Virus record (IMG/VR): IMGVR_UViG_3300030518_000006
Coordinates: 32,774-96,773 of that record
Reading direction: 5' to 3' (one strand)
Length of the DNA: 64,000 nt
Origin: a virus
Shown: piece by piece, positions 3,696 to 58,453 of the stretch
Layout of the letters: each line of letters begins with the position of its first letter
Numbering within the stretch: the stretch's first letter is position 1
The notes under the pieces: generated by a model
What the model was told of the DNA's origin: nothing
Databases searched by the model: none
What the model saw: only the letters and a program-made list of their open reading frames with translations
Made by a program: the position numbers and the translations under genes

Positions 3696-6600
3696 TCCGT
3701 GCCATCGTACTGCATGGTGTAGTTCACATTGACGGTCGAGACCACGATCGTGCTGCTGCCGTCGATCGTCCCCGCGCTCGGCGCGATGGTGAGATTATAC
3801 GTCCCGCTGCCGATCATCTTCACATTCACGATCAGGCCGGTCGGCGGGGAGGCCATGAGGGTGATCTGGAAGGCGCTCGAGCTGGTATCTCCCATGATCG
3901 TATAATCAGAGGCCAGCATCGTATAGTTGGAGGTCTTGGTGGAGATCGGGTACGCGACGGCACAGGCAAAAGTCGCATAGAGCGCTTGATTGATCGTGAA
4001 GAGCGTCGTGAGGGCATTCGGCGTCGAGCTGCTCGTGGTCGCCGACGCCACCCGGAAGATGATATTACCGCCGACTCCGGTCCCTGTGCCGATGCCGCCG
4101 GCGATCGTGAAGCTGGCGCCAGCGATGTTGGCTCCTGAGCCGCCTGTGGCGTTATAGATGATTGCCTGCGGGGCAGCATTGGTCTCGCCATTGCCGATGA
4201 AGACATTGCCGATGGCGGCGGAATTGCCGCCTGCGACGAAGCGGTTGCTCGCACCCACGGCGGTCGAGTCCCCAGAGCCATAGCCCAGAAATATGTTGTA
4301 GGTGCCGGTGGTGGTCTGGTTTCCCGAATCATAACCGATAGCGGTATTGCCAATGCCAGTCATATTGTAGCCTGACCCCAATCCGATCAGGGTGTTATCC
4401 CCGCTCGTGGTCAGGGAGAACCCCGCTTGGAACCCAATACACACATTGCCGGCAGATGACGTCGCCGTGGGTGCGACTTGAGAACCAACGAAGACGTTAT
4501 CCGCTCCGGACGATGCATGCCCCGAGTTATATCCGACAATGGTATTGTCACTCGTGCCGACGATACCTGCACCCGCCAGGTTACCCACCAAGGTGTTATG
4601 GTTGCCCGTTACGGAGGCGCTGCCCGCCCCGGAGCCGAAGAATTCATTGGTAGCCACACCGGAGATGTTCGAGTGCAGGCCGGTAGTCGCTGAGAAGGTG
4701 AATAGCGTACTGCCAGTGACGGTTGAGGTCCCGTTCCAATAGGTGACTTCACCTGATGTGCCAGAGCCAGTGACGCCGCCGCCCGCCCCGAAAGGACCAA
4801 CCGTGGCGCCATTCACGCGCGCATACATGCCTGCACTGGTGATCCAGACGTCGCCATTGACGGGCGTAGTCGGGGCCGACCCTTGCCCGATGTTCAAGCC
4901 GGCCAAGGTCGTGGTGGAGGCGGGGGTCAGGACTTCATAGCTGAAGGTGACTGACGGGACGGACGGGGTGGCGGTCATCCAGGTCGTATAGGTACCCGAC
5001 ACCGATGCCCAGAAGTGAAAACTACCATCGTCGGCCCCGCCATTAGCAGGGGTACCGAAACCGAAGGTGTTGCCCGCCGTGTTCGACCACCGCTGGAAAT
5101 TCTGGTTATAGACGTCGGAGGACTGCCATGCCCATGCGTAGCCTGCCAGGGGGGAAATGACGGTGAAGAATGAGTCGAGCGCGCTGCCGTTTCCCCAGCT
5201 CAAGGCGAGGGGGAAGACGATCGTGTTCGCGATCGTGGCTGATGCGACCGCGAGAGGGGCGCCAGACGGGTAGCTGCCTGAGCAGCTGCCGCTGATGTTG
5301 CCGCCACCTCCGGAGAGTGACGCATACGCGCCACCATTCACCGATGCGTAGAAACCCTGGAGCGTATCATCGTAATAAATGGTCCCGCTGTTGCTCGGCG
5401 ACAGGGCAGGTGCGCTCGTTGTCGCGATGCCGGTCCAGGTGGTCCCGCCATCGCCCCCCACCGTCCAACGCGTGGTCAAGGTATTGGGGGTGCTGCTCGA
5501 CGTCCCGACCGGTGCGGTCTTGATGATCACCGCACCGCCCGCTCCCGTGCCCGTGCCAATGCCGCCGGCGATGGTATAGCTGGCGCCGGCAACGTTGGCG
5601 CCCGAGCCACCCGTCGCATTGTAGACCACCGCTTGCGGACTCGCGGCGGTCTCGCCATTGCCGATGAATACGGTTGATATGGGGGCGCTCAACGAACCGG
5701 CCACAAGGCGATTGCTCGCTCCTGCTGCGGTGCTGTCACCTGAGAGCGCGCCGAGGAAGATGTTGTAGGATCCGGTCGTGTTCGACTCGCCGGCATCGTA
5801 CCCCATTCCAACCAGGTATTGGCCCGTGGTTGTGGCCGTCAGTGCGCCGGCGCCGAAAGCGGCATTGTAGGAACCCGAGGAGCCGCCACCGGTCGCTCCC
5901 TCCAGTGCACTCAGGCCTACGGCCACGTTCTGCGACCCGGCGTTGTAGTAGCCCGCCGAAGATCCGATGAAGGTGTTCGGGCCCCCGGCATAGGCACCCC
6001 CCGCATGGTAACCGACGAGCGTGCTGCCGCTCGTACCCGTGATGGCGGCACCCGCGCTCACGCCGATCATCACATTGCTTCCGCCCGAGGTCAGGGCCGC
6101 CCCAGGACCATTGCCCAGCAGCGTGTTGTTCGCCCCGGTCATGGTGGTGTTGCCGGCATTGGCGCCCCATGTCTCCGTGGCCGTGGTGTTGGGTTGGTTG
6201 CAGGTCACCCCTGCACCGGTCGTATACCGGAGCGTGCTGCTGCCGGTAACGGTCTCAGTGCCATTCCAATAGACCAGCTCACCGGAAGTTCCCGATCCGG
6301 TGATGACACTGGATGGGAGATCAGCGGCCACCAGAGCTCGGAAGGTGGGCGCTGCAGCGGCTCCGGTCGTCGGGCCAGCCCATACGTAGTTGGCCGTCTG
6401 GGTCGCCAGGGTACCAGTCAAGGTACCGGACGCAGTGACGGGCGACCCGGTGACGGTGAATATGGCGGGGAGGGCAAGACCAACACTGGTCACCCCGCCC
6501 CCTCCCGTACCAAAAGGCCCGACCGTCCCGCCATTCACTTGGGCATACATGCCTGCGCTGGTGATCCAGATGTCACCGTTGTTGGGTGATGTCGGAGTCG

Positions 6601-7462: not shown

Positions 7463-8287
7463 TCAGAAGACTCGGCTGCGGATCTTGGCCGACCAGCCGG
7501 TGGTAGCCGGGGTGCAGACCAGGTTGATCGCGCCGCCGGCGATGGTGATAGTCAGAGGGCAGTCGAAGGTGCCGCCGGACGGGGGCCCGAGCACGATCCC
7601 GTATTCGCTCCAGACCGGAGTGGTTCCGTCGTTGACGTTAGCACGTAGGCTCGTGCTATAGCGGGTAGACCCCTTGATGAGCTCGATCTCCCAGAGCACA
7701 TCGGTATAGGTCGCGGTGGCAGCGCTATCGATGACGGTGGCTGCGGCCGGGATCGAGGCGACGGTGAGCGTGCCACTGGTGCGCGGGCCGACGAACGGAT
7801 TGGGGTATGTTCCCGACAGATCGCCGCCGGCAGGCCCTGTGGGAGATCCGCCTCCGCCTCCGCCCGTCTCGCCGATCCAGTTCGCTTCACCATCGGACAA
7901 GACGATGTTGTAGAAGACGAGGAGGACCCACGGCATGTTGCGTCGGGACAGGTCCCCGTACTGCTGCACCATGATCGGGGAAAAGAAATAGCTCGGGTTG
8001 GCTGAGAAGAAGACCTGGGCGTTAGCGATGGCTTCAATGATGGTGCGGCCAGTGAAGGCCTCCGCCTTATATGGGTTGGCCATCGTGGTGGTCGACCCGG
8101 TCGTCAATGTCATGCCAGCGTTGAAGTTCAGGCCGGTGCGCGGGTTGTCATTCGCGCAGAAGACCGGGCCCTGCACGATGTCGCTCAGGTAGGGCGCCAG
8201 CGCCGCATTCAGCTGGGTGATCAGGCCGGATTGGACCGGGGTGTCCTGGATCGTATCCGCTTGCACTGAGAGGGAGATAGTACCCAC
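7463..8287 (-). CDS. Fibre-like protein with GDLSGTYPNP linker
   Basis: 274 aa. The N-terminal 140 residues form a compact domain of unknown family. A Gly-rich hinge (GETGGGGGGSPTGPAGGDLSGTYPNPFVG) follows, a motif widespread in phage fibre and collar proteins. The C-terminal 110 residues are a beta domain (SLRANVND, YGIVLGPPSGG). I infer a trimeric fibre or fibre-tip protein; it lies next to the large YadA-like fibre. Confidence 0.7.
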   Translation of the reverse strand: MGTISLSVQADTIQDTPVQSGLITQLNAALAPYLSDIVQGPVFCANDNPRTGLNFNAGMTLTTGSTTTMANPYKAEAFTGRTIIEAIANAQVFFSANPSYFFSPIMVQQYGDLSRRNMPWVLLVFYNIVLSDGEANWIGETGGGGGGSPTGPAGGDLSGTYPNPFVGPRTSGTLTVASIPAAATVIDSAATATYTDVLWEIELIKGSTRYSTSLRANVNDGTTPVWSEYGIVLGPPSGGTFDCPLTITIAGGAINLVCTPATTGWSAKIRSRVF

Positions 8288-8318
8288 GGGGTGTATCCTG
8301 CAAAGAAAAGAGGGGCAA

Positions 8319-10103
8319 TCAAGGAGCGTTTGCGCTTACGTAGGGTGTTCGTTCGATCGCGTCACGCAGTTGGGCGCTGACCATCTCGTAGGAGAATTGC
8401 CGAAGCGCCGCGCGGCGGGTGCAGTTGAGCGGACTCGCGATCAAGGTGTCGCGGATCTTATCGGCGACACGGTTGATTGGGGCCAGATCGTTCGGTTTGC
8501 GCAGAGAGCCGAAGGGGAAGGCAAGGCTCCGCTCGGGGCAGATGTAGCGCTCGGTGGTATGCAGAGACGAGTTCGCCACCAGGAGGCAGCCGGAGATCGC
8601 CGCTTCTGCCATCACCAGGGAGCACGCCTCGCTCTGGGTGGGAAACACGAAGAGATTCGAGACCGAGAAGAGGTCCCTGATGGTGGCCTGGGTGACCCCG
8701 ACGCCGGCGGACTCCGGGAAGATCTCGCTGGTGATCGCCAGGTGATCGCCAGGCATCCCCGCAGCGATGGCCCGGTCCCGGCAAGCGGTCAAGGCGGCGC
8801 GCTCGGCATCCCCATTGGCATGGGCCGTGGCGAGTACCAGGCGGCAGGATAGGCCGAGCTTGGTCAGATGCCCGAAGACATCGATGATCTTGTCGACGCC
8901 CTTGAATCCGAGACGGGTCGCGGAGACAGGATAGATCTGGACCACGTCGGCGAGATGGAGGCCGTAGGCCCGGATAATGTGCGCGGCGCGCTCGTCGAAG
9001 GTGCCGAAGGTTGTCACGTCGCGAGCGTTGGGGCAGACCAGGACGTTGGAGGGATCGGTGTCGTAGTAGGCCGCCAGATAGGGCCGGTCGGCGTCGTTCA
9101 GGCAGAGCAGGCGATGCCCGTAGGGCAGCGTGGTGCGGTTACGTACCGCGTCTCCACCGGTCGGACGCACGGTCGCCGCGGCACTATGGCAGCAGTGCAG
9201 CCAGCCGAAGCCGGGGAGCTTGGAGAGCTGCCAGATGGCAGCGGTAAGCGTGGCATAGGAGGCCTGGAACAACAGGTCGTGGGTGATCACCGTGGCATTG
9301 CCGAGCTTGATCAGATTCTGCCGGATCACGCTGACCAGTTGATCGACTACCACAGGATCGATGCGATCATCGCGCCAGATGACAGCGGGGATGATGGGAA
9401 GGATCTCGACATTCGGCGGAAATGCAGGGGCCTTGGCGATATTCGTGCCCAGGTGCACCCAGATCTGCACGAGCACAGCCGGATTGCTCGCGAGCATCCG
9501 CGCCTGGTCGGTGATGGCGGTGGAGAGGCTGTAGGAGGGATCGAAGTTGGCCAGGCTGGTCATCAAGACGATGCGCCGACGGTAGCTGAGCGTGGCGCCT
9601 TGCTTGATGAGGAGATTGGCTTTCTTCTCTTCGCATGTCGTGCAGGGTACATCCTCGGGCGTCCCGGCTGCCCCGGCCGTGGGAGCGGGAGTACTGGAGT
9701 CGACAGTGGTCGGTATAACAGGCTTGAAATCGCTCGCTTTGCGCAGCGCTACCGGAGCAGGCGCCGGAGCAGCCACGGGAGGGACACTGAGCAGCTTGGA
9801 CAGTGCCGGGGCTCCATACATGTAGAGCCACAATACCGCCCGAACCGGAACATAAGCCGCGGCAGTGGTGAGGAACGCCGCGACGACGGGACCACCGACA
9901 AACAGATCGAGGCAGATGAGGAGGAGGCAGATCCACCAGATATTGCAGGTGTGGCAGAGCACCGGGTTGAGGAAGATCCGGCTCGTCGTCGTTTTTTGGA
10001 GGCGCGGCAGCAGCCAGGTGCGCAGCGGCGTGAAGATCGCCTCGAAATTCCAGATCCGGTGGACACCGGCACAGGCAAGGAAGAGGACGATGAGGTCATG
10101 CAT
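8319..10103 (-). CDS. Membrane protein fused to a GT4 glycosyltransferase
   Basis: 594 aa. Residues 1-110 contain three or four hydrophobic segments and the motif CHTCNIWW, which recalls the DUF1360 membrane family (Cys-pair next to Trp). After a Pro/Ala linker with a second Cys pair (PCTTCEEKK), residues about 190-590 form a GT-B glycosyltransferase. It has YPVSATRLGFKGVDKIID and the EACSLVMAEAAISG loop (E-x7-E region typical of GT4). The substrate is unknown. It may modify the host envelope sugar against superinfection or decorate virion proteins at the membrane. Finding both domains in one chain is unusual. Confidence 0.75.
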   Translation of the reverse strand: MHDLIVLFLACAGVHRIWNFEAIFTPLRTWLLPRLQKTTTSRIFLNPVLCHTCNIWWICLLLICLDLFVGGPVVAAFLTTAAAYVPVRAVLWLYMYGAPALSKLLSVPPVAAPAPAPVALRKASDFKPVIPTTVDSSTPAPTAGAAGTPEDVPCTTCEEKKANLLIKQGATLSYRRRIVLMTSLANFDPSYSLSTAITDQARMLASNPAVLVQIWVHLGTNIAKAPAFPPNVEILPIIPAVIWRDDRIDPVVVDQLVSVIRQNLIKLGNATVITHDLLFQASYATLTAAIWQLSKLPGFGWLHCCHSAAATVRPTGGDAVRNRTTLPYGHRLLCLNDADRPYLAAYYDTDPSNVLVCPNARDVTTFGTFDERAAHIIRAYGLHLADVVQIYPVSATRLGFKGVDKIIDVFGHLTKLGLSCRLVLATAHANGDAERAALTACRDRAIAAGMPGDHLAITSEIFPESAGVGVTQATIRDLFSVSNLFVFPTQSEACSLVMAEAAISGCLLVANSSLHTTERYICPERSLAFPFGSLRKPNDLAPINRVADKIRDTLIASPLNCTRRAALRQFSYEMVSAQLRDAIERTPYVSANAP

Positions 10104-10106
10104 GGG

Positions 10107-10892
10107 TTAGCCGAAGGTGAGTATGAGGGTTTCAGCGCCACAAGGGGCTTCGCCGGGAACACTGACGGTGCCGGTGATCACGCCAGCGACGCATGACAGG
10201 GCGCCGGTGAGAACCGGGCCATAGGTCGGTGATCCGGTGTTGCCCCCGGCGATCACTTGGTAGTCAAGCCCATTGAAGGTGACCTGGACATAGGAGTTAC
10301 CTGCGAGGTTGCCCCAGGTCCAGGTGCAGGTATCTCCGCCGTCGCTCTGATAGGCTCCACCGAGCCACGCAGTGCTTGGGATCAGACACCCACCGCCGGG
10401 ACCTGCACCCGAGCCGCTGAGTGCTACTGCAGGCTGGGCCACGCCGCAGGTGGTGCACGGGCCTGCTGCGGTCGTGGTGCTCGAGGTGCTCGAGGTGGTG
10501 AAGGTGATCGTGCTGGTCGTGGTCGTCGTAGTCGTGGTCGTGGTCGTGGTCGTGGTACTCGTCGTAGTCGTGGTGGTCGTGGTCGTCGTGGTCGCGCCGC
10601 AGGTGGCCGGACAGCAGGGAGTCGGCAGCGTGGGGAGCGTGAAGCAGACACACCCATTCTGCTGCTGCAGTGAATACTCGGTCGACGTGCAGGTCTCAAG
10701 GAAGGGGGCGCAGAGGGTGTTGTCGACGCAGGCCGTGTTGGTCGCGTCGAGCACCCAGGTCGAGACGCCTCCCACCAGGCCGCAGGTATAGCGCACCTGC
10801 AGGCAGCAGTTGGAGCCGCCGGGCGGTGTGGGCTCCGGGCAGGGCGCGGTGGTCGAGGTGTTGGGGCAGTTAGGGCAGGGCATCGGTACCAT
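10107..10892 (-). CDS. Cys-rich protein with long poly-Thr linker
   Basis: 261 aa. The N-terminal 95 residues hold about 15 cysteines (PCPNCPN, NCCLQVRYTC, NGCVCF, PCCPATC). Then comes a run of more than 30 Thr/Ser residues, and a beta-rich C-terminal domain (SYVQVTFNGLDYQVI) with further Cys pairs (PCTTC). Poly-Thr linkers are extended and often glycosylated, and the GT4 gene is the neighbour. It could be a spike or decoration protein. The start is ATG 10892 or ATG 10883. Confidence 0.6.
   Translation of the reverse strand: MVPMPCPNCPNTSTTAPCPEPTPPGGSNCCLQVRYTCGLVGGVSTWVLDATNTACVDNTLCAPFLETCTSTEYSLQQQNGCVCFTLPTLPTPCCPATCGATTTTTTTTTTTSTTTTTTTTTTTTTTSTITFTTSSTSSTTTAAGPCTTCGVAQPAVALSGSGAGPGGGCLIPSTAWLGGAYQSDGGDTCTWTWGNLAGNSYVQVTFNGLDYQVIAGGNTGSPTYGPVLTGALSCVAGVITGTVSVPGEAPCGAETLILTFG
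10497..10596. repeat. Trinucleotide (Thr-codon) microsatellite
   Basis: About 100 bases of GTN-type triplets on the plus strand, read as ACN threonine codons on the minus strand, with GTCGTGGTC-type blocks repeated. This is prone to slippage in steps of three and so could vary the linker length without changing frame. Confidence 0.8.
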
Positions 10893-13742: not shown

Positions 13743-13997
13743 GTGCTCACCTACTCCATATCCGATCTGTTGCGTGGAGATATCGGGGAGATCTTCGGCA
13801 TAGTCCAGCACCGGGGCGAAGAGATCACGATCACCCGCTTCGGTAAGCCGATCGTGCGCATCGTGCCGATTACGTCGGTTACTCACGCCGATAAATCTCT
13901 GACGGACCCCAGTGCCAATCGCAGTTCCATGTCGCTCGACAAGCTGACCTCGATGCCCGTCCCGCCGGATGCGATCCCACCACGAAAGAGGAAATGA
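13743..13997 (+). CDS. Phd/YefM-like antitoxin-fold regulator
   Basis: 84 aa from GTG 13743; an upstream TTG at 13707 lies before the predicted transcript start. The first 45 residues (TYSISDLLRGDIGEIFGIV...EEITITRFGKPIVRIVP) match the Phd/YefM DNA-binding fold that pairs with toxins. The tail is basic (IPPRKRK). No Phe-Doc, RelE or PIN toxin follows, so it may act alone as a phage repressor binding the inverted repeat at 13696-13710. The next gene overlaps by ATGA. Confidence 0.65.
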   Translation: MLTYSISDLLRGDIGEIFGIVQHRGEEITITRFGKPIVRIVPITSVTHADKSLTDPSANRSSMSLDKLTSMPVPPDAIPPRKRK

Positions 13998-14461
13998 CCA
14001 TGCCCAAGACGTCTGACAGAACTTATGCGCGCAAATTACTCAATGCTCTTATAACGGCCCACGAGGGGCTTGAAAACGTGACGCATGCCCGCGAAGCGCT
14101 TCTGCTGAAGCGCGCGAAGAAAACGAGGGAGATCCCTGTTCTGTCCGCAAACGAGGAACTCGACCACGAGCTACGTAGAACCGAAGCTGAGATCGCCGTT
14201 GAGGAGGCAGGGCGTGCGCCACGTGTGAGGATCGAACCGAATCCGATGATTGAGCAGAAACGCCTTCACGTTGAACTAGCGTTCCAGCCTAAACCGGATC
14301 GCATGGAGACCCTCAACGTTATCCTCCTGATCGTCGGCGTCCTGGCCCTGGTAGCACTCCTGGCCCGTGCGCATGGCTCCGAAAACCCTGCCGGAAATTC
14401 TGTGGAAATCCCGGTAAAATCCACTGTTCCCATGTCCAGCCCTGCTCCGACAACCCCCTAA
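13994..14461 (+). CDS. Hypothetical protein with C-terminal membrane segment
   Basis: 155 aa (or from ATG 14000, with better ribosome-site spacing). Residues 1-110 are charged and helical; about 113-131 (LNVILLIVGVLALVALLA) form one membrane span; the tail is short and Ser/Pro-rich. Its stop-start overlap with the Phd-like gene implies co-translation. Function unknown. Confidence 0.65.
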   Translation: MTMPKTSDRTYARKLLNALITAHEGLENVTHAREALLLKRAKKTREIPVLSANEELDHELRRTEAEIAVEEAGRAPRVRIEPNPMIEQKRLHVELAFQPKPDRMETLNVILLIVGVLALVALLARAHGSENPAGNSVEIPVKSTVPMSSPAPTTP

Positions 14462-14479
14462 AAACCACTTAGGTCCCTG

Positions 14480-14491
14480 CTACCATGGTAG
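14480..14491. repeat. 12-bp palindrome CTACCATGGTAG
   Basis: A perfect palindrome just before the structured leader, between the membrane-protein gene and the next gene. It could be a protein-binding site; no further evidence. Confidence 0.5.
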
Positions 14492-14500
14492 TTATGCCTA

Positions 14501-14608
14501 AATATGGTCATACAGGCCGTAACGCAAGGCTGGTCTTGCGTTACAAGATAGCCTTGGAAACGCTGGGGGATTACTCCAAAATATCTCAGGAGATTGTATG
14601 ACCATATT
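14501..14608 (+). promoter_or_regulatory. Structured mRNA leader folding over a start codon
   Basis: Outer stem: AATATGGTCATAC (14501-14513) pairs perfectly with GTATGACCATATT (14596-14608), plus one extra A-T pair inside. The right arm contains the ATG (14598) of the next gene. Inside are a perfect 10-bp hairpin, GTAACGCAAG / CTTGCGTTAC (14519-14528 / 14535-14544), and a short stem, TTGGA / TCCAA (14554-14558 / 14575-14579). The Shine-Dalgarno CAGGAGA (14588-14594) sits at the junction. The fold is a three-way junction that would hide the start. I infer translational control; ligand or protein unknown. Confidence 0.6.
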
Positions 14609-15053
14609 CCGCCTGACTTCCAAGGGGGTCGTTCCCGGCCGCCTGATTTCTATCCTCTTCGAGGCCAAGTATACGGGGAACACGATTACGTTTCCCTATG
14701 ATTGGACGGGTAAGAATGCAACATTGGCAATGAGCCTCCTTCGTCCCGGTGACCAGAATGTACGCCTGCGGTGGCCAATTCGAATGAGTATCTTCAGTCT
14801 CAAGAAGGTGAGCGTGCAGGTTGGGGAGATTCGTTACAAGCCAGGCGTCTACTCTCCGAATCATAAGGATGGCAGCCTCTACATCCCGTCTCATCAGACC
14901 GTCTGGATCACGGATATCGACAAGGGGGCGCTCATCAAAGGTGAGATGCTCTTGGAACCCCTCGTCGTCGAGCTGGATCGACGCAAAGGCGTCCTCGTCA
15001 CGGAGGTACCGAATCAGATCAAACCGGCACCGTTGAAGTTCGTGGCCCGATGA
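14598..15053 (+). CDS. Hypothetical protein under the structured leader
   Basis: 151 aa, family not recognised. Mixed beta composition (ISILFEAKYTGNTITFPYDW, VRLRWPIRMSIFSL) with a basic surface. Start ATG 14598 follows CAGGAGA at good spacing and lies within the outer stem of the leader, so its translation is probably regulated; it may bind its own leader. The stop overlaps the next small gene (ATGA at 15050). Confidence 0.65.
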   Translation: MTIFRLTSKGVVPGRLISILFEAKYTGNTITFPYDWTGKNATLAMSLLRPGDQNVRLRWPIRMSIFSLKKVSVQVGEIRYKPGVYSPNHKDGSLYIPSHQTVWITDIDKGALIKGEMLLEPLVVELDRRKGVLVTEVPNQIKPAPLKFVAR

Positions 15054-15139
15054 TCACCCTCTTCGACTACCTGCTCGCTTTCCCCGACAATACCGAAGCG
15101 CGCGAGATGATCGCCCGCATGCCCAAGGACGATTCATGA
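15050..15139 (+). CDS. 29-aa small protein
   Basis: Reads MITLFDYLLAFPDNTEAREM... and ends KDDS. It starts in an ATGA overlap with the gene before and ends in an ATGA overlap with the gene after. This chain of couplings makes it a likely real small gene or a coupling peptide. Amphipathic; function unknown. Confidence 0.55.
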   Translation: MITLFDYLLAFPDNTEAREMIARMPKDDS

Positions 15140-15979: not shown

Positions 15980-16617
15980 GCGCCAAGCTCACCATCGCCG
16001 CTCCACGCCAACCCGTCGCCCAGCTCCCCATCTGGGACTGGGTTGGCGACGTGCAGTTCTATTCGATGGCCCAGACCCGCAACGCCACAGGAGAATTCTG
16101 TGAAGAAGCAACCCGGCATCTCCTCGGCGGCGAGCGGCTCTCCACCCAAGGAACGGTGGACATCTGCCCGGACATCCGATTGGACGAGCATCGTTATCTT
16201 GAGGTTAAATCGGTGGGGGATCGGCGATGCGCCCTCCTCTACGAGCATATCCTCGACCGAACAATCCGGTTCGTCCGCCGTAACCGGGTCAAGGTCTTCT
16301 ATGTCTTCTGGATCCACACCGTTCCCGCCGCCAAGTGTCCCAGTCTATTCGATTTGCGACGGGCGATGGCCGCATCTATTGATCGTGTCATCATCGTCCC
16401 CTTCACCCAGGTGCACGAGGCGATCAAGGGCATCACGCCCCGGAAGATGAACTACCGGGTCCGGGAGCACAGCGGGGAGCAGATCGCTATGCTCGGCTGG
16501 TCGATTCCGGTCAAGCAGCTGAAGGCCTGGAGCGTCGGACAGCCGCGAATGGCGTTTGACACCGAGGTCTTCGGGTATTCGATGGGTGGGTATCCGGTCT
16601 ATGGAGACGTGCGATGA
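15976..16617 (+). CDS. PD-(D/E)XK-like nuclease candidate
   Basis: 213 aa, TTG start inside the preceding stop (TTGA). Residues around 60-80 (GTVDICPDIRL...RYLEVKSVGD) match the D...ExK catalytic core of PD-(D/E)XK nucleases. No full family is recognised. The end, GGYPVYGDVR, is repeated almost exactly at the end of the methyltransferase (GGYPVYGEIR), a trace of the cassette duplication. A restriction-like or DNA-processing role is possible. Confidence 0.5.
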   Translation: MSAKLTIAAPRQPVAQLPIWDWVGDVQFYSMAQTRNATGEFCEEATRHLLGGERLSTQGTVDICPDIRLDEHRYLEVKSVGDRRCALLYEHILDRTIRFVRRNRVKVFYVFWIHTVPAAKCPSLFDLRRAMAASIDRVIIVPFTQVHEAIKGITPRKMNYRVREHSGEQIAMLGWSIPVKQLKAWSVGQPRMAFDTEVFGYSMGGYPVYGDVR

Positions 16618-16754
16618 CCCTTCCCCCGCCCGTCATCTCGCTTGAGTCGCTGCTCTTCTGGAACCTGGCCGCCGCGGTCGGCATCACACTGCTCGTCCGG
16701 TTCTTGGTGCTCTGGCTCGCCCGTACCCTATTTGGAGAGGGCCATGACCACTGA
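16614..16754 (+). CDS. Small membrane protein TMa, copy 1 (46 aa)
   Basis: Starts in an ATGA overlap and ends by overlapping the next gene. One strong membrane span (SLLFWNLAAAVGITLLVRFLVLWLA) and a short charged tail (FGEGHDH). Nearly identical to the gene at 20005-20145. Possible virion-membrane protein or lysis protein. Confidence 0.65.
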   Translation: MTLPPPVISLESLLFWNLAAAVGITLLVRFLVLWLARTLFGEGHDH

Positions 16755-16890
16755 GCAGCTATACTACGCGACCGGCATCGCTTCCAATGTTCTGACCATC
16801 CTGACCTGCGCCTACACCATCTGGACGCTCCGCAGCTGGGTGAGCAGCACGGTGAAGAAGGCGCTCGACGACGTGAAGAAAGTGATCTGA
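16744..16890 (+). CDS. Small membrane protein TMb, copy 1 (48 aa)
   Basis: ATG 16744 overlaps the end of TMa by 11 bases. One membrane span (GIASNVLTILTCAYTIWTL) followed by a basic amphipathic tail (KKALDDVKKVI). Nearly identical to 20135-20281. The TMa-TMb pair always occurs together, suggesting a two-part membrane unit. Confidence 0.65.
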   Translation: MTTEQLYYATGIASNVLTILTCAYTIWTLRSWVSSTVKKALDDVKKVI

Positions 16891-16891
16891 C

Positions 16892-17653
16892 ATGCCGAAA
16901 TACCGCCAGGCGTCCGCGTATTCTCCGCCCGAGGACCCATTCCCAGTATTGAGGCCCACCATGCCCACCCCCATCCACCCGTGCGATGCACTTACCACAC
17001 TCGAACCGAAGCAGCAGGGGGCCTTTCCTGATCCAGTGCGCTTCCCACCGCCGAAGGGCTCGGAGGGTTCCTGCGGCTGCCTCCTGACCGAGTGGCCGAA
17101 CCCGCTCGATGGAAACCCGCCCTACCAGAAACTTGAAACGATCTGGCAGCCGCTCTGGGATACCGTCTCGGCCCCAGAAGGCATGAAGGTCATGAACTTC
17201 TTCTCCGGCGATCGAGAGGACGACATCCTCTACGGAGAACGCGACCGCATGGGGTACCAAAAGAAGATGCGCGCCGATAACGGGCGCAGCTTCCCACGTT
17301 CCATCGGCGCGATGTTCTGGCCGAAGAAGTTCACCATGTGGGAGCTCGAGCTGCAGTTCAGTGATCCCAACGGATACGGGGACAGCATCCCCTCGAAGCT
17401 CGGCCTGCTCGATACCATCGAAGGCGACTTCGCTCGGATCCGGATGCAGATCGGGGAAAAGTGGCATCTCGACCTCCCCTTCGCGTCTTTTTTCAAGGCT
17501 AGAGAGGACAACTACCGCGCGGCACTCTGCACCCCGCTCTTCCTCCCCTCGATACAGAACTTCGGCATCAGCCTGACCTGGCCGCGAGAATCCCGGGCCC
17601 GGTGCACTATCCGCTGCGTTCTCAACGGCTATCTCCACCGCGAAATTCCCTGA
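16892..17653 (+). CDS. Distant coat-like family member
   Basis: 253 aa. The C-terminal half follows the pattern of the three coat-like paralogs at 34-37.5 kb: WPKKFTMWELELQF, then RMQIGEKWHLDLPF, then LFLPSIQNFGISL, and a final VLNGYLHREIP. The N-terminal 110 residues are Pro-rich and unique. I infer a beta-barrel virion component. It sits within the duplicated cassette region but has no second copy beside the 20-kb cassette. Confidence 0.6.
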   Translation: MPKYRQASAYSPPEDPFPVLRPTMPTPIHPCDALTTLEPKQQGAFPDPVRFPPPKGSEGSCGCLLTEWPNPLDGNPPYQKLETIWQPLWDTVSAPEGMKVMNFFSGDREDDILYGERDRMGYQKKMRADNGRSFPRSIGAMFWPKKFTMWELELQFSDPNGYGDSIPSKLGLLDTIEGDFARIRMQIGEKWHLDLPFASFFKAREDNYRAALCTPLFLPSIQNFGISLTWPRESRARCTIRCVLNGYLHREIP

Positions 17654-17661
17654 GCCTGACC

Positions 17662-18012
17662 ATGCCCCTCTACCACCTCCTCGCTCAGCCCCTGCCCAAG
17701 CTCACTCCCGACGGGAAGCGCGTCTGGGTCTGCATCTGCGGCCAGAAGGTCGCCCTGCCGAACGTCCAGCCGGCGAGCCAGGTGATCCAGACCTCGAACA
17801 ACCGGGTGGAGGTCATGGAGTGCCCGGCCTGCTATGCTGGTACCGAGGAAAAGGGCGAAGAAGCCCCTCCGATGACCGAGCAGGGGGATATCAAACCGAC
17901 CTTCGACCAAGATCTGGGAGATGCCACGGACGACCAATCTGCGCCGGATGAGACGGGTGAAGATGGGGAGGTTCTGGAGGAGGAGAAGGTCGACTTCCCT
18001 GACGCGCGATGA
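17662..18012 (+). CDS. Zinc-ribbon-like small protein, copy 1
   Basis: 116 aa from ATG 17662 (shared MPLYHLL start with its paralog). The motif VCICGQK...ECPACY gives a CxC...CxxC metal site. The C-terminal 60 residues are acidic (DQDLGDATDD, DGEVLEEEKVDFPD). Paralog at 20283-20633. Its ATGA overlap leads straight into the methyltransferase. Confidence 0.65.
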   Translation: MPLYHLLAQPLPKLTPDGKRVWVCICGQKVALPNVQPASQVIQTSNNRVEVMECPACYAGTEEKGEEAPPMTEQGDIKPTFDQDLGDATDDQSAPDETGEDGEVLEEEKVDFPDAR

Positions 18013-19844
18013 CCCGATATGGAAGCCTTTGTAGCGGTATTGAAGCAGCCACCGTTGCTTGGGATGGGATGGGATGGGAACCTGCATGGTTTAGCCAGTT
18101 CGATCCACAGCGTCCTGAAGGAGATTTCCCCTCTAGAATACTGGCCCACCACTACCCTGAAGTGCCTAACCTTGGGGATATTACATCTGAGAACTGGCTG
18201 ACTCGGGCTTCAAGCTATGGCGATATCGACGTATTGGTTGGTGGAACCCCCTGCCAAGCGTTTTCCATTGCCGGGTTGCGCAAAGGCCTTGAAGATCGCC
18301 GGGGCCAATTATCCCTTCGTTTTGTGGAGATAGCCGATGCCGCAGACCCACCCGTCATCCTCTGGGAAAACGTCCCTGGAGTCCTTAGTGATCGAACCAA
18401 TGGATTCGGTTGCCTCCTCGCTGGGCTTGCCGGTGAAGATGTGCCGCTCCAGCCAGCAGGGCGAACATGGTCGAACGCTGGTTGTGTGTTTGGCCCCAAA
18501 AGAACAGTCGCATGGCGGGTCCTCGACGCCCAATATTTCGGACTGGCCCAACGACGCCGGCGTGTGTTTGTTGTCGCAAGTCCTGGAGCCAGCGGCATCG
18601 ATCCATGCGAGATTCTATTTGAGTTCGAAGGCGTGCGCCGGGATTCTCCGCCGAGCCGCGAAGCGGGGGAAAGTACTTCCCATCCAATTGCACCGTGCCC
18701 TGATCGGAGTGGTACAGGGTTCAGTCGAACCGGAGATATCCGGGGACAGGATCCCGTTGTAGTCTGCATTACAGGTGATCGGACTCACGCGCTGAGCGCG
18801 GAAGGTGCAGATGCAGGTGAAGATGGAACGGGACGGGGAACCCCAATTATCGCTGTCGGAGGAAATAATACTAGCGGCCCTATTACTGTTGCTGCTGCTT
18901 TGAATGCGAATAGGGGATGCCCTAACCCAGGAGACTTTGAGGCTGGAACCTTGCTTGTCGCCTTCGATACGACCCAGATCACTAGTAAGACGAATCGCTG
19001 CCAGCCGAAGCACGGAGATCCCTGTCACCCTCTTGCTGCTGCTGCTCATCCTCCGGCGATAGCGATCCAGGAGCGAGCGATCTGTGAGAACCCCGATGCT
19101 GGACCTGATGGGATCGGGGTTCGCACTGATGACTGTGCTTATATCCTGGAAGCTCGAGGCGTTTCGCAGGCAGTATGCTTCCACCCGACACAAGACCCGA
19201 TCCCGAATAGCGATAATATCTGCCATGCTCTTGGTTGCGGGAACGGTCAGGGGCACGCAGCAGCAGCAGCAGTGAATATCGGGGTTCGGGTCCGCCGTCT
19301 TACTCCTCGCGAGTGTGAACGCCTGCAGGGATTCCCAGATGACTATACTGATATCCCAAAGAAAGTCTTTCGAGGTACCCCGAAAGACTCAGGCCCATGT
19401 AAGAAACAAATTGTTGTCGCCACTGTTGTTTCATTGAACGGCACCCATTATGTTGGCACAAATCATACGATGAACCCTCAAACGACTTGCCCCCGGGCTG
19501 GAATGCCAACTGGCGTCGGATATGAATTATGTCGCTCAATATGCCAGCAAACGGCACATGCAGAAGTAAACGCTCTTCAGCTTGCGGGCCGTAAAGCTCG
19601 CGGAGCAATACTTTATATAGAGGGGCACACATACGCTTGTGAGCCTTGCCTTAAAGTAGCTAAAGCCGCCGAGATTAGTTCTATTGTTTTTGGGAAGCCT
19701 CCTGGCACCAGCGCCGATGGCCCCCGCTATAAAGCTCTTGGAAACAGCATGGCTGTCCCGGTAATGCGCTGGTTGGGATGGCGGATCGACAGTGCCTTGC
19801 GTACACGTTTGGGTGGGTATCCGGTTTATGGGGAGATTCGGTGA
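18009..19844 (+). CDS. Cytosine-5 DNA methyltransferase with inserted cytidine-deaminase-like domain
   Basis: 611 aa. Methyltransferase motifs in order: YGSLCSGIEAATVAW (I), GGTPCQAFS (IV, catalytic Cys), WENVPG (VI), LAQRRRRVFVVA (VIII), RECERLQGFPDDYTDIP (IX) and RYKALGNSMAVPVMRWLG (X). Between IX and X lies an insert, about residues 464-562. It has TAHAEVNA (H517, E519) and ACEPC (C544, C547), which is the zinc/proton-shuttle signature of cytidine/dCMP deaminases, plus a central VGTNHTMNP and ILYIEGH strand. Codons are more AT-rich than in neighbours, suggesting transfer. It starts by ATGA overlap. Likely role: protection or modification of viral DNA. The deaminase activity is inferred. 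Confidence 0.85.
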   Translation: MTRYGSLCSGIEAATVAWDGMGWEPAWFSQFDPQRPEGDFPSRILAHHYPEVPNLGDITSENWLTRASSYGDIDVLVGGTPCQAFSIAGLRKGLEDRRGQLSLRFVEIADAADPPVILWENVPGVLSDRTNGFGCLLAGLAGEDVPLQPAGRTWSNAGCVFGPKRTVAWRVLDAQYFGLAQRRRRVFVVASPGASGIDPCEILFEFEGVRRDSPPSREAGESTSHPIAPCPDRSGTGFSRTGDIRGQDPVVVCITGDRTHALSAEGADAGEDGTGRGTPIIAVGGNNTSGPITVAAALNANRGCPNPGDFEAGTLLVAFDTTQITSKTNRCQPKHGDPCHPLAAAAHPPAIAIQERAICENPDAGPDGIGVRTDDCAYILEARGVSQAVCFHPTQDPIPNSDNICHALGCGNGQGHAAAAAVNIGVRVRRLTPRECERLQGFPDDYTDIPKKVFRGTPKDSGPCKKQIVVATVVSLNGTHYVGTNHTMNPQTTCPRAGMPTGVGYELCRSICQQTAHAEVNALQLAGRKARGAILYIEGHTYACEPCLKVAKAAEISSIVFGKPPGTSADGPRYKALGNSMAVPVMRWLGWRIDSALRTRLGGYPVYGEIR

Positions 19845-20008
19845 TCCATATCGTTCTGTGTTCAGCCGTAGTTCTCCTTATCGTAGGGTTAATGCTTTAT
19901 GTCACGGAGAGGCGGTTGCGAAGCTGGCCGGTATTTGTCCGCGTGTTATGGTATACAATGCTCGTTGTGGCAGCCTTCAATACTATGCACGGAGCATTTT
20001 TCGAATGA
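19841..20008 (+). CDS. Small two-span membrane protein (55 aa)
   Basis: GTG 19841 overlaps the methyltransferase stop (GTGA). Spans: VLCSAVVLLIVGLMLYV and VLWYTMLVVAAFNTM, with a basic loop (ERRLRSW) between. AT-richer than most neighbours, like the methyltransferase. It ends in an ATGA overlap with TMa copy 2. Function unknown. Confidence 0.55.
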   Translation: MIHIVLCSAVVLLIVGLMLYVTERRLRSWPVFVRVLWYTMLVVAAFNTMHGAFFE

Positions 20009-20145
20009 CTCTTCCCCCGCCCGTCATCTCGCTTGAGTCGCTGCTCTTCTGGAACCTGGCCGCCGCGGTCGGCATCACGCTGCTCGTCCGGTTCTTGGTG
20101 CTCTGGCTCGCCCGTACCCTATTCGGAGAGGGTCATGACCACTGA
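20005..20145 (+). CDS. Small membrane protein TMa, copy 2 (46 aa)
   Basis: Same protein as 16614-16754 (MTLPPPVISLESLLFW...). One membrane span. Starts by ATGA overlap with the 55-aa gene. Confidence 0.65.
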   Translation: MTLPPPVISLESLLFWNLAAAVGITLLVRFLVLWLARTLFGEGHDH

Positions 20146-20281
20146 GCAGCTCTACTACGCGACTGGCATCGCCTCCAATGTTCTGACCATCCTGACCTGC
20201 GCCTACACCATCTGGACGCTCCGCAGCTGGGTGGGCAGCACGGTGAAGAAGGCGCTCGACGACGTGAAGAAAGCGATCTGA
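20135..20281 (+). CDS. Small membrane protein TMb, copy 2 (48 aa)
   Basis: Near-identical to 16744-16890. One membrane span and a basic amphipathic tail (KKALDDVKKAI). Overlaps TMa copy 2 by 11 bases. Confidence 0.65.
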   Translation: MTTEQLYYATGIASNVLTILTCAYTIWTLRSWVGSTVKKALDDVKKAI

Positions 20282-20282
20282 C

Positions 20283-20633
20283 ATGCCCCTCTACCACCTC
20301 CTCGGCCAGCCTCTCAACATCGACCCCAACACTGGCAAGCGCATCTGGGTCTGCCTGTGCGGGCAGAAGGTGAGCCTGCCGAATGTCCAGCCGGCGAACC
20401 AGGCGATCTCGATCTCCAACAACCGGGTGGAGGTCATGGAGTGCCCGGCGTGCTACAACGCCACGGATGAGAAGGAGGAAGAGGCCGCGCCGGTCAGCGA
20501 GACCGACGGGGAGCTCAAGCCGACCTTCGATCAGGACATCGGCGAGGCCACTGATGACCAGGAGGCACCTGACGAGACCACCGGCGACGGTGAGGTGCTC
20601 AAGGAAGAAAAGGTCGATTTCCCGGATACCTGA
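20283..20633 (+). CDS. Zinc-ribbon-like small protein, copy 2
   Basis: 116 aa, paralog of 17662-18012. It keeps VCLCGQK...ECPACY and the acidic C-terminus (DQDIGEATDD, EVLKEEKVDFPDT). Follows TMb copy 2 by one base, as part of the repeated gene order. Confidence 0.65.
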   Translation: MPLYHLLGQPLNIDPNTGKRIWVCLCGQKVSLPNVQPANQAISISNNRVEVMECPACYNATDEKEEEAAPVSETDGELKPTFDQDIGEATDDQEAPDETTGDGEVLKEEKVDFPDT

Positions 20634-33600: not shown

Positions 33601-34161
33601 ATGGCCGCCCTCCCCTTCAAACTCAAGATGAACGCCAAGACGCTCGGCATCGGCGCCGGTGCCCTGGTCGGCCTGTTCCTGGTCTACAAGCTCGCCTTCC
33701 ACAAGAGCAAGAAGGCGGCCGAGGATACCAGCACCTCCGGTGATGCCGCGGCCCTCGCCCAGATCCAAGCCCAGCTGAACCAGCAGGGCCAGACGCTCGC
33801 TGCGGCCACGGCGGCACCTGCAGCCCCAGCCTACGGCACCCCCGGATATGGGTTGCCCTACACCCCGGCGTATGCCGCTCCCACCTACGGCACCCCGGGC
33901 TATGTGGCCCCCTATGCGGCCCCGGGCACCACCCAGGCCTCAGGACCTCCTGCTACCCCGCCGGTCGGGGGGTACCAGTGGATCTGGAACGGCGCCGCCT
34001 GGACCCAGACCCCGGCCGCCACCCCGGTCGGGATGCACTGGCAGCAGCTGGGATCGACCTTCCAACTCGCCCCGAACGCTTCGAGCGTGGCCTACATCGA
34101 TCGCCGGCCGGCGAGCCCGGCCTCGATCATCCCGACCACGGTGCTCACGCCGCCGAACTAG
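33601..34161 (+). CDS. N-terminally anchored Pro/Tyr-rich protein
   Basis: 186 aa. One membrane span near the start (TLGIGAGALVGLFLVYKLAF) followed by a basic stop (HKSKK). Then a Gln/Ala helix, a Pro/Tyr/Gly-rich arm (YGTPGYGLPYTPAYAAPTYG) and a small Trp-rich beta end (YQWIWNGAAWTQTP, MHWQQLG). Ends 4 bases inside the convergent coat-like gene. Confidence 0.6.
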   Translation: MAALPFKLKMNAKTLGIGAGALVGLFLVYKLAFHKSKKAAEDTSTSGDAAALAQIQAQLNQQGQTLAAATAAPAAPAYGTPGYGLPYTPAYAAPTYGTPGYVAPYAAPGTTQASGPPATPPVGGYQWIWNGAAWTQTPAATPVGMHWQQLGSTFQLAPNASSVAYIDRRPASPASIIPTTVLTPPN

Positions 34162-34712
34162 CAGATCTCCCGGTAGAGCATGCCGTCGAGCTGGACGCGC
34201 ACGTCCACGTGGCGGTCCCTCCAGTCGATGTCGCCGGTGTTGAGGACCAAGCTGAAGTGTTGAACGGGCGGGATATACAGGCTGGGAGTGATACCCAGGT
34301 GCTTGAGCCGAATCGGCGGCAACCCTGGCGCAGCAGCGGCGTCCTTCTCCACGTCGTCATCCCGCTCCATGTTCATGAGCGGCAGGTTGAAATAGAGCTT
34401 CTCACCGATCTGAAAGTAGAAAGACGCCTTCGAGATATCGACGACCTTGGAGAGCGAGATCCGGATCCCGTCGAGGAGAAATCGTTTCGGCCAGGTGAAT
34501 TGCCCGGCCGTGCGCATGTTGGTGTAGGCTTCAGACCGGCCGTTCGGATTATGGAAGAAGCAGATGGTGCTGTGGGCCGCCCACGGCTGGGTGTCATAGA
34601 TCGAGCGTCGCCCTTTCTCGAGGCGGACCCCTCCCTTGCGGTGGTCCTTGACATGGACGTACTCAACCGGGACTTCGACGAGCCAGGGGGCCCCCGTCCT
34701 TCTCTCCTTCAT
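34158..34712 (-). CDS. Coat-like paralog 1 (frame of N-terminus uncertain)
   Basis: 184 aa from ATG 34712. Shared family pattern: VKDHRKGGVRLE...IYDT, YTNMRTAGQFTWPKRFLLDGIRISL, FQIGEKLYFNLPL, LYIPPVQHFSLVL and final LDGMLYREIC. This ATG has a poor ribosome site. A strong one (AAGGAG) precedes ATG 34764 in a different frame (33 codons, starting MAEKIFED), and a GGGGGCCCCC run lies between. A one-base change there would fuse the two. I infer a beta-barrel virion protein. Confidence 0.6.
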   Translation of the reverse strand: MKERRTGAPWLVEVPVEYVHVKDHRKGGVRLEKGRRSIYDTQPWAAHSTICFFHNPNGRSEAYTNMRTAGQFTWPKRFLLDGIRISLSKVVDISKASFYFQIGEKLYFNLPLMNMERDDDVEKDAAAAPGLPPIRLKHLGITPSLYIPPVQHFSLVLNTGDIDWRDRHVDVRVQLDGMLYREIC

Positions 34713-34764
34713 ATACCTGGACGATCGAGCCTCTGCCCGGGTCTTCGAAGATCTTTTCAGCCAT
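34663..34764 (-). other. 33-codon upstream frame with a strong ribosome site
   Basis: ATG 34764 follows AAGGAG at 8 bases and encodes MAEKIFEDPGRGSIVQVYEG... before stopping at 34663, inside the coat-like gene. It is either the displaced true N-terminus (frameshift at the G5C5 run, 34686-34695) or a translated coupling peptide. Confidence 0.45.
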
Positions 34765-34789
34765 GATGAATCTCCTTGTGGTGGTAGAG

Positions 34790-35692
34790 TTACTGGATTT
34801 CCCGGTGGATCGTGCCATCGAGTTGCACCCGGATCTCGGCCGACTCGAAATGCTTGCCGCCGGTATTGATGGTCAGGCCGAACCATTGGACCGGCGGGAT
34901 GTAGATCGTCGGGGTGATGCCCACGTGCTTCAGACGCATGCGCGGGAGCAGGGGGCCGTACTCGCCATCCTTGATCGGGTCGTCGTCCCGCTCCATGTTC
35001 TTGAGCGGCATGGTGAGGTACCTCTTCTCGCCGATCTGGAGTTCGAAGTGCGCCTCGGAGATGTCGACGAGGTGGGAGAATGAGATGCGCACGCCATCGA
35101 GATCGAAACGCTTGGGCCAGGTGAGCTGACCTGAGGTAGCTAGATTGGTGATTGCCGGCCCCCGATTCGGCCCGCCGCCGGTCTGGAAGAAGACGATCGG
35201 GGGTGGATTAGCGATGTACTCATCGCGGCGTCCCATCGGCACGTTGAACATGGTCCCATGGACCTGGGTGTCGTAGAGCGGCTGGCGACACGATTCCAGG
35301 CGGATCGTTCCGTTCTGAGCATCCTTGTGCTCGGTGAAGCGCGCACCGGGGGATGGTTTCAGGTCATCCAGGCCACGCGAGCCCTGCAAGGCATCATCCA
35401 GCTGCTTGGCAAGATCTGCGTCTGATACGTCCTCGAAGCCGGTCAGGGATTGCCAGTACTCCTCGGTCGAGCGAAAGACCTGGCCTTTCTCCGGCTTGGG
35501 GTCCTTGGTCTTCTTCGGTGGTTTGGTCGCGGCAGGCATGGAGAGATCTCCTGGCATGGGGTTGGTGGTGCGCGTCATGTGACGTTGGAGCACCTCTTGG
35601 ATGGTGAGCTGGTAGGACTCCGAATGTGCTTTGTACCAAGCCAGCACATCGGGATCGATGCGCATGGTGATCGAGGTTTTCTTCTTGGGCAT
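34790..35692 (-). CDS. Ribbon-helix-helix DNA-binding domain fused to a coat-like paralog
   Basis: 300 aa from ATG 35692. Residues 3-38 (KKTSITMRIDPDVLAWYKAH...TIQEVLQRHM) match the ribbon-helix-helix fold of BrnA-type antitoxins. A Lys/Pro linker follows. Residues about 120-300 carry the coat-like pattern (GTIRLESCRQPLYDT, TNLATSGQLTWPKRFDLDGVRIS, LQIGEKRYLTMPL, IYIPPVQWFGLTI, LDGTIHREIQ). A second start, ATG 35539 (MPAATK), has AGGAG 8 bases upstream and would give the coat part alone (249 aa). The promoter in front fits a leaderless long form. Two products are likely. Confidence 0.65.
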   Translation of the reverse strand: MPKKKTSITMRIDPDVLAWYKAHSESYQLTIQEVLQRHMTRTTNPMPGDLSMPAATKPPKKTKDPKPEKGQVFRSTEEYWQSLTGFEDVSDADLAKQLDDALQGSRGLDDLKPSPGARFTEHKDAQNGTIRLESCRQPLYDTQVHGTMFNVPMGRRDEYIANPPPIVFFQTGGGPNRGPAITNLATSGQLTWPKRFDLDGVRISFSHLVDISEAHFELQIGEKRYLTMPLKNMERDDDPIKDGEYGPLLPRMRLKHVGITPTIYIPPVQWFGLTINTGGKHFESAEIRVQLDGTIHREIQ

Positions 35693-35696
35693 ACCT

Positions 35697-35744
35697 GTAT
35701 GTACGTAGATACGTACAGACTTGCAAGACCCGAGACGTACATAC
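35697..35744 (-). promoter_or_regulatory. Leaderless-type promoter with palindromic operators
   Basis: On the minus strand: TTGCAA (35721-35726), a 17-base spacer, TACATA (35698-35703), then CAGGT and ATG 35692. A transcript would begin at about the start codon. A perfect inverted repeat, TGTACGTA-GA-TACGTACA (35700-35717), overlaps the -10. GTATGTACGT (35697-35706) recurs inverted as ACGTACATAC (35735-35744). These fit an operator for the ribbon-helix-helix protein. Confidence 0.6.
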
Positions 35745-35867
35745 GAGCTGGGTCTTGGTGCATCGGGCGAAGGGCATAGGCTGGGCCGTGTCGCATGTGG
35801 TTGCGCCGCCTCCTCTGCTGGGGCCGCCCGATCAACAGCATATGTGCAATCGCTTCTGCCGCTCCTG

Positions 35868-36056
35868 ATGAGCGTGACGAGAACCCCGATGCCCATGATG
35901 CTGATGTCCAATCCAGGTCTGCACCTCGCCCTGCTCGGGAACCCGTATCGCGGTCGTTCCCGCAAGCGCCGTCATTCCTGTTCCAACCCTCGTCGTTCAC
36001 ACCGCCGTGCGTCCGCACGTCGGCACCGTCGTTCCCACACCCAAAGGAGAAACCCC
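35868..36056 (+). other. In-frame basic extension upstream of the 36057 gene
   Basis: From ATG 35868 the frame runs unbroken into the gene at 36057. It encodes a highly basic stretch (YRGRSRKRRHSCSNPRRSHRR...HTQRRNP) in the style of the protamine-like genes. No good ribosome site is seen before ATG 35868 or the ATGs at 35889-35906. It may give a longer, DNA-binding form of the downstream membrane protein, or be the relic of a separate basic gene. Together with 35697-35744 it fills the 364-base gap between confident starts. Confidence 0.4.
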
Positions 36057-36926: not shown

Positions 36927-37502
36927 ATGCCCGTCTTCCGCACCGTCAAGGATGCCCGCTCCGGCTCGATCCGGCTCGAAGCCATCCACCAGCCGCTGTA
37001 TGACAGCGTGCTGCTCGCCACCACCCTGCAGACGTCCGCAACGCTGTTCTCCCTCGGGAACAACGGTCGCTCGGCGCTCTACACCAACCTCCAGACCGCT
37101 GGCCAGCTCAGCTGGCCGAAGCGCTTCTCGATCCGCGCCCTGCGTCAGGTGCTCGGCTTCAACAGCGCGACCTACGCCAACGTGGCCGCCTTCTGGGCTG
37201 CGGCGTTCTACCAGCTGCAGGTGGGTGAAAAGGTTTATCTCACCATCCCGGCGTTCATCCTCACCGCCGGCGGCGGCCTGAGCCAGCAGACCCTGGTCCC
37301 GGCTACCGCCACCACGGCGGGAACCATCAACTGTGAAACCGGCTGGCCGGACCAGCGGAATATCTACTCGCTGCTGCACTCGATTTATTTGCCGCCCGTG
37401 CAGAACTTCTTCCTGGCACTGACGACCGCTGGCGGGACCCTGACCGCTTCGACGTACTGCCACATCTTCCTGGAAGGTGAGCTGCTCCGCGAAATCCAGT
37501 AA
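36927..37502 (+). CDS. Coat-like paralog 3
   Basis: 191 aa, the shortest and cleanest member: MPVFRTVKDARSGSIRLE, QPLYDS, YTNLQTAGQLSWPKRFSIRALR, LQVGEKVYLTIPAF, IYLPPVQNFFLAL, LEGELLREIQ. GGAGGAG lies before ATG 36927. It stands alone with its own spacer and a strong terminator, typical of a highly expressed structural gene. I infer a candidate major coat protein with a beta-barrel fold; its size fits a single barrel better than a double one. Confidence 0.65.
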   Translation: MPVFRTVKDARSGSIRLEAIHQPLYDSVLLATTLQTSATLFSLGNNGRSALYTNLQTAGQLSWPKRFSIRALRQVLGFNSATYANVAAFWAAAFYQLQVGEKVYLTIPAFILTAGGGLSQQTLVPATATTAGTINCETGWPDQRNIYSLLHSIYLPPVQNFFLALTTAGGTLTASTYCHIFLEGELLREIQ

Positions 37503-37526: not shown

Positions 37527-37558
37527 GAAAAACCCCGGGCTTCGGCTCGGGGTTTTTC
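37527..37558. terminator. Bidirectional intrinsic terminator
   Basis: AAAAACCCCGGGC-TTCG-GCTCGGGGTTTTT: a GC stem closed by a TTCG tetraloop with an A-run before and a T-run after. It serves the coat-like gene on the plus strand and the 37567-37851 gene on the minus strand. Confidence 0.9.
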
Positions 37559-46163: not shown

Positions 46164-46420
46164 GGGATCCAGCCTTTCATCCAGCGTTCGCAGGTGGCCA
46201 AAGGGATACCGAGAATAGCCCCCCACAAAATCAGCACGTGCTCATCGAGAATGCGGCCTTTCGACTCCACAACATACCGGCGGAGCTCCGCCCGATCATG
46301 GGTCTTCAGCAAACGGCGCCAATCGGCCAGCTTACCAAACATCATAATCCGGGCTGCTCGGAGCTCCCGGGAGATCCCCTTCTTGGGGTCGACATCCCAC
46401 AAATATGCGACTTTCTGCAT
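46151..46420 (-). CDS. Antitoxin-like partner of the AbiEii protein
   Basis: 89 aa from ATG 46420. Begins MQKVAYLWDVDPKKG, a pattern seen in small genes beside AbiEii/DUF1814 toxins, followed by a helical body (ARIMMFGKLADWRRLLKTHD). The gene order (small gene first, overlapping) is that of a toxin-antitoxin pair. The antitoxin role is inferred from position. Confidence 0.55.
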   Translation of the reverse strand: MQKVAYLWDVDPKKGISRELRAARIMMFGKLADWRRLLKTHDRAELRRYVVESKGRILDEHVLILWGAILGIPLATCERWMKGWIPWRG

Positions 46421-58303: not shown

Positions 58304-58310
58304 AATAGAT

Positions 58311-58340: not shown

Positions 58341-58453
58341 AGTACCGACTAACCTACTCGATGTATCCGACGTCCGAGTGCCCGGCCGGGGACCACGTAT
58401 TACCTTTGCTTCGTCGCGAGCGAGGATCGCTTTGCTGCGACCTTGTCGGCCAG

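Follow-up and report, generated by a model that had tools for sequence, protein, structure and literature searches.

A conserved segment with nested inverted repeats precedes an exchangeable gene in an operon of uncultivated viruses

What does a set of nested inverted repeats do when it surrounds the start codon of a viral gene, and does it belong to that gene at all? The question is raised by positions 14,480 to 14,608 of a 64,000-nucleotide stretch of DNA (hereafter the window), which comprises bases 32774-96773 of the 96,773-base record of an uncultivated virus (IMGVR_UViG_3300030518_000006). An earlier note had described this locus as a three-way-junction leader RNA that hides the start codon of a gene for a 151-amino-acid (aa) protein. 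We found that the repeats lie in a segment that is conserved in related viruses together with its central dyad, that the genes downstream of it differ from virus to virus, and that a small open reading frame (ORF), p36, runs through the repeats and ends in an ATGA overlap with the 151-aa gene. On balance, and tentatively, we favor reading the locus as a control segment within the operon, ~130 nt long, conserved and independent of the cargo, combined with translation of p36, re-initiation at the ATGA, and an outer stem that acts as a lock.

The repeats are as conspicuous as first reported. The outer inverted repeat (AATATGGTCATACA and TGTATGACCATATT) is 100% complementary with its arms 80 nt apart, and measures 14 bp, slightly more than the 13 bp originally given. 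Inside it lies the perfect hairpin of 10 pairs that had been described, which forms a 26-bp dyad, and just upstream is the 12-bp palindrome CTACCATGGTAG (14480-14491), bordered by TTAGG (14469-14473) and CCTAA (14497-14501). The minimum free energy fold contains a third, short composite stem at 14552-14590 and places the Shine-Dalgarno (SD) motif at the junction, partly paired in the short stem, with the ATG (14598-14600) inside the outer stem. This arrangement is improbable by chance, as had been supposed: at least 13 bp nested around at least 9 bp occurred in 2 of 400 simulated windows (~0.5%), and an inverted repeat of at least 14 bp with a spacer of at most 120 occurred in 3.75% of simulated 64-kb windows. 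The leader fold has a z-score of -3.9 (0 of 200 shuffles were equally stable), and leader segments rank 2nd to 4th and 8th for excess stability in a scan of 984 segments on both strands. In RNA of the window virus, the outer stem has a pair probability of 0.999 and the 10-bp hairpin one of 0.505, with two competing inner structures of roughly equal probability.

Comparison with relatives separates the conserved parts of this structure from the private ones. Four viruses were compared: the window virus, its sister contig L007 (IMGVR_UViG_3300021083_000537, segment at 5175-5313), the more distant G004, and G009. Identity between the window and L007 peaks at 88% over 14460-14519 and is 80-90% across the leader and ~75% over the membrane-peptide stretch that precedes it; it drops to background on both sides, with 14000-14290 and the gene after the start codon unrelated. 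The central dyad recurs as GTAACGCAAG-6-CTTGCGTTAC in the window, GTTACGCGAG-6-CTGGCGTAAC in L007 and GTTACGCAAG-6-CTTGCGTAAC in G004 (52756 in its record), at 53, 55 and 51 nt, respectively, from the next start codon. Its half-sites, GTWACGCNAG, and its total length of 26 bp are constant in the three viruses, showing the symmetry and spacing of an operator dyad, and the stretch between dyad and start (GAATTAC..CAGGA) is likewise conserved. One dyad pair is altered on both sides (A-U to U-A), a second symmetric double change lies in the flank, and one pair is broken in L007.

The outer stem has a different history. Its left arm is common to the window and L007, its right arm is not, and the pairing of 6 bp (GGTCAT/ATGACC) that is left in L007 varies with the stretch folded, with a probability of 0.93 or 0.00. 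The 14-bp outer stem is thus mostly private to the window virus, with the inner dyad as the conserved part, and the three-way junction with a hidden ATG does not hold up as a conserved device. Nor is the start codon unusually occluded where upstream translation is lacking, since its opening energy matches the norm among genes of this GC-rich virus; the ATG is hidden to no exceptional degree, and this hiding is not conserved.

These results bear directly on the proposal of a riboswitch-like or protein-controlled leader that serves the 151-aa gene specifically and uses the three-way junction as its conserved sensor. The stability of the fold and its two nearly equiprobable inner structures would suit such a device, but junction and outer stem are not conserved, start occlusion is average, and the downstream genes of the relatives are unrelated. 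The gene downstream differs per virus, and the segment is therefore not a gene-specific autoregulatory leader. A search of the leader against Rfam returned nothing at the gathering score (lax-threshold matches were at chance level, best E 2.5), and a tRNA/tmRNA search returned none. We consider this proposal highly improbable.

The position of the 151-aa gene is occupied by a 97-aa helix-turn-helix (HTH)-like gene in L007 (weak match to MbcA, E 0.004) and by another small gene in G009, while in G004 a homolog of the next gene follows directly, without cargo. Searches for the 151-aa protein in Pfam, in PHROGs, among PDB sequences and among phages and related records returned no match. Structure prediction without alignments gave low-confidence models for it and for the 97-aa protein of L007 (predicted local distance difference test scores, pLDDT, of 41 and 55).

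The earlier note overlooked a small overlapping reading frame that encloses the whole structure. The frame p36 (MPKYGHTGRNARLVLRYKIALETLGDYSKISQEIV followed by a stop) is open from 14494, or from 14485, to 14601, and its TGA (14599-14601) overlaps the ATG of the 151-aa gene; the left arm, the hairpin, the short stem, the ribosome site and the start codon in the right arm all fall within it. ATGA overlaps are frequent in this operon (13994, 15050, 15136, 16614, 18009 and 23970), and the stop/start overlap is also found in L007 and G009, while G004 has an ATG-less open frame. In each of the four viruses an open frame leads up to the ATGA, with 42, 43, 38 and 81 codons (43 in L007) and individually weak P values of 0.11, 0.17, 0.26 and 0.02. 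Its codon changes relative to L007 comprise 3 synonymous and 14 non-synonymous ones, spread over codon positions as 9/8/5 without a third-position excess. Given this lack of amino-acid constraint alongside the 88% nucleotide identity peak, the constraint acts on the nucleic acid and not on the peptide. The earlier view of a leader element at the gene start thus survives in part: the element is conserved without a protein-level drive, but a small ORF within the operon reads through it, so it is no plain 5′ leader. We also considered p36 as a truncated HTH protein and rejected this, as it has no Pfam or PHROG match and its amino acids are not conserved relative to L007.

In the reading we favor, a segment with two dyads and a ribosome site has been retained by this virus group before an exchangeable first cargo gene. 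We infer that p36 is translated, that ribosomes on it (14494-14601) would be carried through the segment to the ATGA and re-initiate on the 151-aa gene, and that the 14-bp outer stem, as a lineage-specific extension of the 6-bp pairing, would close the 151-aa start while p36 is untranslated. Both component mechanisms are established. Re-initiation at ATGA (PMC6728339) likewise involves an ATGA overlap, co-directed genes and an SD motif within the upstream frame; here, however, the upstream role falls to a frame of 35 codons whose amino acids are not conserved and which runs across a conserved nucleic-acid element. Opening of start-site structure by translation of an upstream ORF, as in the coat-lysis coupling of phage MS2 (PMC12548453), shares with our case a structured start site within an upstream reading frame, whereas here the locking stem is lineage-specific, the coupling is inferred, and the virus has a DNA genome.

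Several observations weigh against this reading. The outer stem dwindles from 14 bp in the window to 6 bp in L007, with none seen in G004, and the covariation sought across relatives amounts to the symmetric double change in the inner dyad and the second one in its flank, with a score reached by 51 of 500 shuffles among three sequences, which is no proof; even four viruses make too small a set to test covariation. The relay frame of G004 has only a TTG in place of an ATG, and both ATGs of p36 lack a good SD motif at the usual spacing. Opening the start site of the 151-aa gene costs 10.7 kcal/mol, which ranks 25th among 55 window genes, and the corresponding costs in the relatives are lower (6.7, 4.0 and 4.6).

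The same dyad can be read as DNA, and we regard this as a serious, if less probable, alternative. The segment would then be a DNA control region in which the dyads form a putative operator of a dimeric regulator beside phased A-tracts and an unrecognized promoter; transcription would start inside the segment, the left arm would lie outside the RNA, and the three-way junction would never form. Three observations speak for the central dyad as a DNA site: the excess of folding stability is no smaller on the opposite strand (z = -5.15 on the minus and -4.56 on the plus strand), its pairs are all Watson-Crick, and it is kept in L007 although L007 RNA disfavors the hairpin (probability at most 0.08). 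Phage operator dyads occur at the head of an operon. The present dyad resembles them in its symmetric site with constant half-sites and in the HTH-like gene directly behind the segment in L007; it differs in that no promoter was recognized and the candidate site is internal to an operon, at a distance of 51-55 bp from the start codon downstream. The symmetric double change is no proof of RNA, because the same change would be expected of a symmetric site in DNA.

Upstream of the segment, the helically phased A-tracts recur in different reading frames in all four viruses: the densest 250-nt GGAAA stretch lies there in 4 of 4 (window 14376, L007 5101, G004 7076, G009 3426), and Tandem Repeats Finder reports a period of 12 in G004 and G009. 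Since their frames differ and not all of them fall in coding sequence, they suggest a feature of the DNA itself, such as bending. Against a DNA control region, a promoter search that covered sigma-70-like sites found none, and the genes on either side of the segment are closely spaced and run in one direction. This position within the operon speaks for the central dyad as RNA, as does its constant spacing from the start codon; the sequence between the two is conserved as well.

The exchange of cargo itself suggests another reading, in which the segment is kept as the 5′ flank of a cargo slot for homologous exchange and the palindromes are by-products without a regulatory role, the right arm having been copied from the left by template switching. 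The cargo indeed differs between the conserved ATGACC and ATGATCACCCTCTTC, the left arm is ancestral while the right arm is new, and the flanking blocks are unrelated. However, conservation is highest in the dyad and palindrome, not at the junctions, and the dyad recurs in the distant G004, where there is no cargo gene. We judge such a recombination junction unlikely.

Phased A-tracts and hairpins at a place where two gene arms diverge could also mark a replication origin. In the window virus and G004, cumulative GC skew reaches its global maximum no more than a few kb from the segment, which is single-copy in the window. Yet the usual leading-strand G excess would predict a minimum, the maximum coincides with a switch in gene orientation that explains it, and a replication initiator was not recognized nearby, leaving an origin very improbable.

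Coordinates of the segment and its surroundings are collected below.

Table 1. Elements in and around the conserved segment, in window positions (strand "." where neither strand is assigned).
Feature	Position	Strand	Remark
Small membrane-peptide stretch of 52 codons, 3′ part of a 155-aa ORF (13994-14461)	14303-14461	+	Precedes the segment and is conserved with it
Helically phased A-tract repeats GAAAAC/GGAAAT/GGAAAT/TAAAAT, spacing ~10-12 nt	14379-14420	.	Just upstream
Palindrome CTACCATGGTAG with TTAGG/CCTAA flanks	14469-14501	+	Kept in L007 with one U-G change
Small relay ORF p36, 35 aa from ATG 14494 or 38 aa from in-frame ATG 14485	14485-14601	+	Stop TGA and following ATG overlap (ATGA)
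Left arm of the 14-bp outer inverted repeat	14501-14514	+	13 of 14 bases common to L007
26-bp dyad / 10-bp hairpin GTAACGCAAG-GCTGGT-CTTGCGTTAC	14519-14544	.	Retained in L007 and G004; distance to the start codon 51-55 nt
SD motif AGGAG of the 151-aa gene	14588-14592	+	At the junction; some of its bases pair within the short stem
Right arm of the outer repeat with the ATG (14598) of the 151-aa gene	14595-14608	+	Relatives share ATGACC only
151-aa orphan cargo gene	14598-15053	+	Unrelated genes replace it in relatives
Conserved 3′ junction ATGATCACCCTCTTC	15050-15064	+	Also directly behind the different cargo of L007 (5601-5615)

The membrane-peptide stretch is 60% identical in amino acids to L007:5013-5168, and its substitutions are concentrated at codon positions 1 and 3 (17/6/18), a pattern that indicates selection at the protein level. 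Upstream of it, a small Phd/YefM-antitoxin-like protein (13746-13997; Pfam E 4e-4, below the cut-off) occupies the same place in L007, G004 and G009; a toxin was not recognized.

Near-identical copies of the window virus are the IMG/VR contig L001 and a contig from a bog (L052, 99.99% identical) that was binned to a metagenome-assembled genome (MAG) of the Planctomycetota. Three protein queries, run against contigs of viruses and of genomes, phage records and 392 genomes of Planctomycetota, returned only the same few viruses, the near-identical copy binned to the Planctomycetota MAG, and a single distant match. No recognizable leader was found at the homologous place in two further relatives (G005 and G006), and the window holds no second copy. 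The inverted repeat TTACGCAAG was considered as a widespread phage motif and set aside, as it occurs in 13 IMG/VR contigs, G004 among them, about as often as estimated by chance. An equivalence between the CTTAGG-hairpin-TATGCCTAG of G009 and the window palindrome is ambiguous, since the four-way alignment pairs it differently, and was not used as evidence.

Other features of the window and its relatives were recorded. Toward its C-terminal end, the ORF of a C-5 cytosine DNA methylase (18009-19844; Pfam PF00145) also encodes a cytidine/deoxycytidylate deaminase domain (PF00383); the gene is flanked by two pairs of direct repeats, as if a module had been duplicated (16614-16896 / 20005-20287, 283 bp, 96.8% identity; 17656-17936 / 20278-20560, ~285 bp, 77.7% identity). 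Four paralogs (16892-17653, 34158-34886, 34790-35965 and 36927-37502), perhaps virion proteins, share the motifs WPK[RK]F and LQ[IV]GEK; the family also occurs in IMG/VR viruses of 44-110 kb, and the members scanned had no significant PHROG or Pfam family. A near-perfect, bidirectional terminator-like hairpin (GAAAAACCCCGGGCTTCGGCTCGGGGTTTTTC, 37527-37558) lies between convergent gene arms, and a 12-bp perfect hairpin (TGGGCGTAAGTC-8-GACTTACGCCCA, 58310-58341) lies at a gene start. The window also encodes an AbiEii-like nucleotidyltransferase of the type IV toxin-antitoxin family (45546-46226). The related virus L043 (G005) contains a dispersed hairpin family, ACCCCACGGCG..TGGTG..CGCCGTGGGGT, with 11-12 bp stems and similar loops (5587-6027 and 8001-10289 on the reverse complement).

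Beyond the single locus, a bolder generalization, which we put forward as a possibility with clear reservations, is that phased A-tracts, palindrome, 26-bp dyad, ribosome site and a relay ORF ending in ATGA form a fixed control cassette of ~130 nt in an undescribed virus group, in which unrelated accessory genes are swapped in between conserved junctions and any incoming first gene would at once come under the same control. The locus also carries a caution: a fold may look striking in one genome and yet be largely confined to its lineage. If our reading is correct, it would provide a compact, testable case in which ribosomes cross a conserved nucleic-acid element by translating a small overlapping frame, in a group of uncultivated viruses that would plug new accessory genes into a ready-made control segment.
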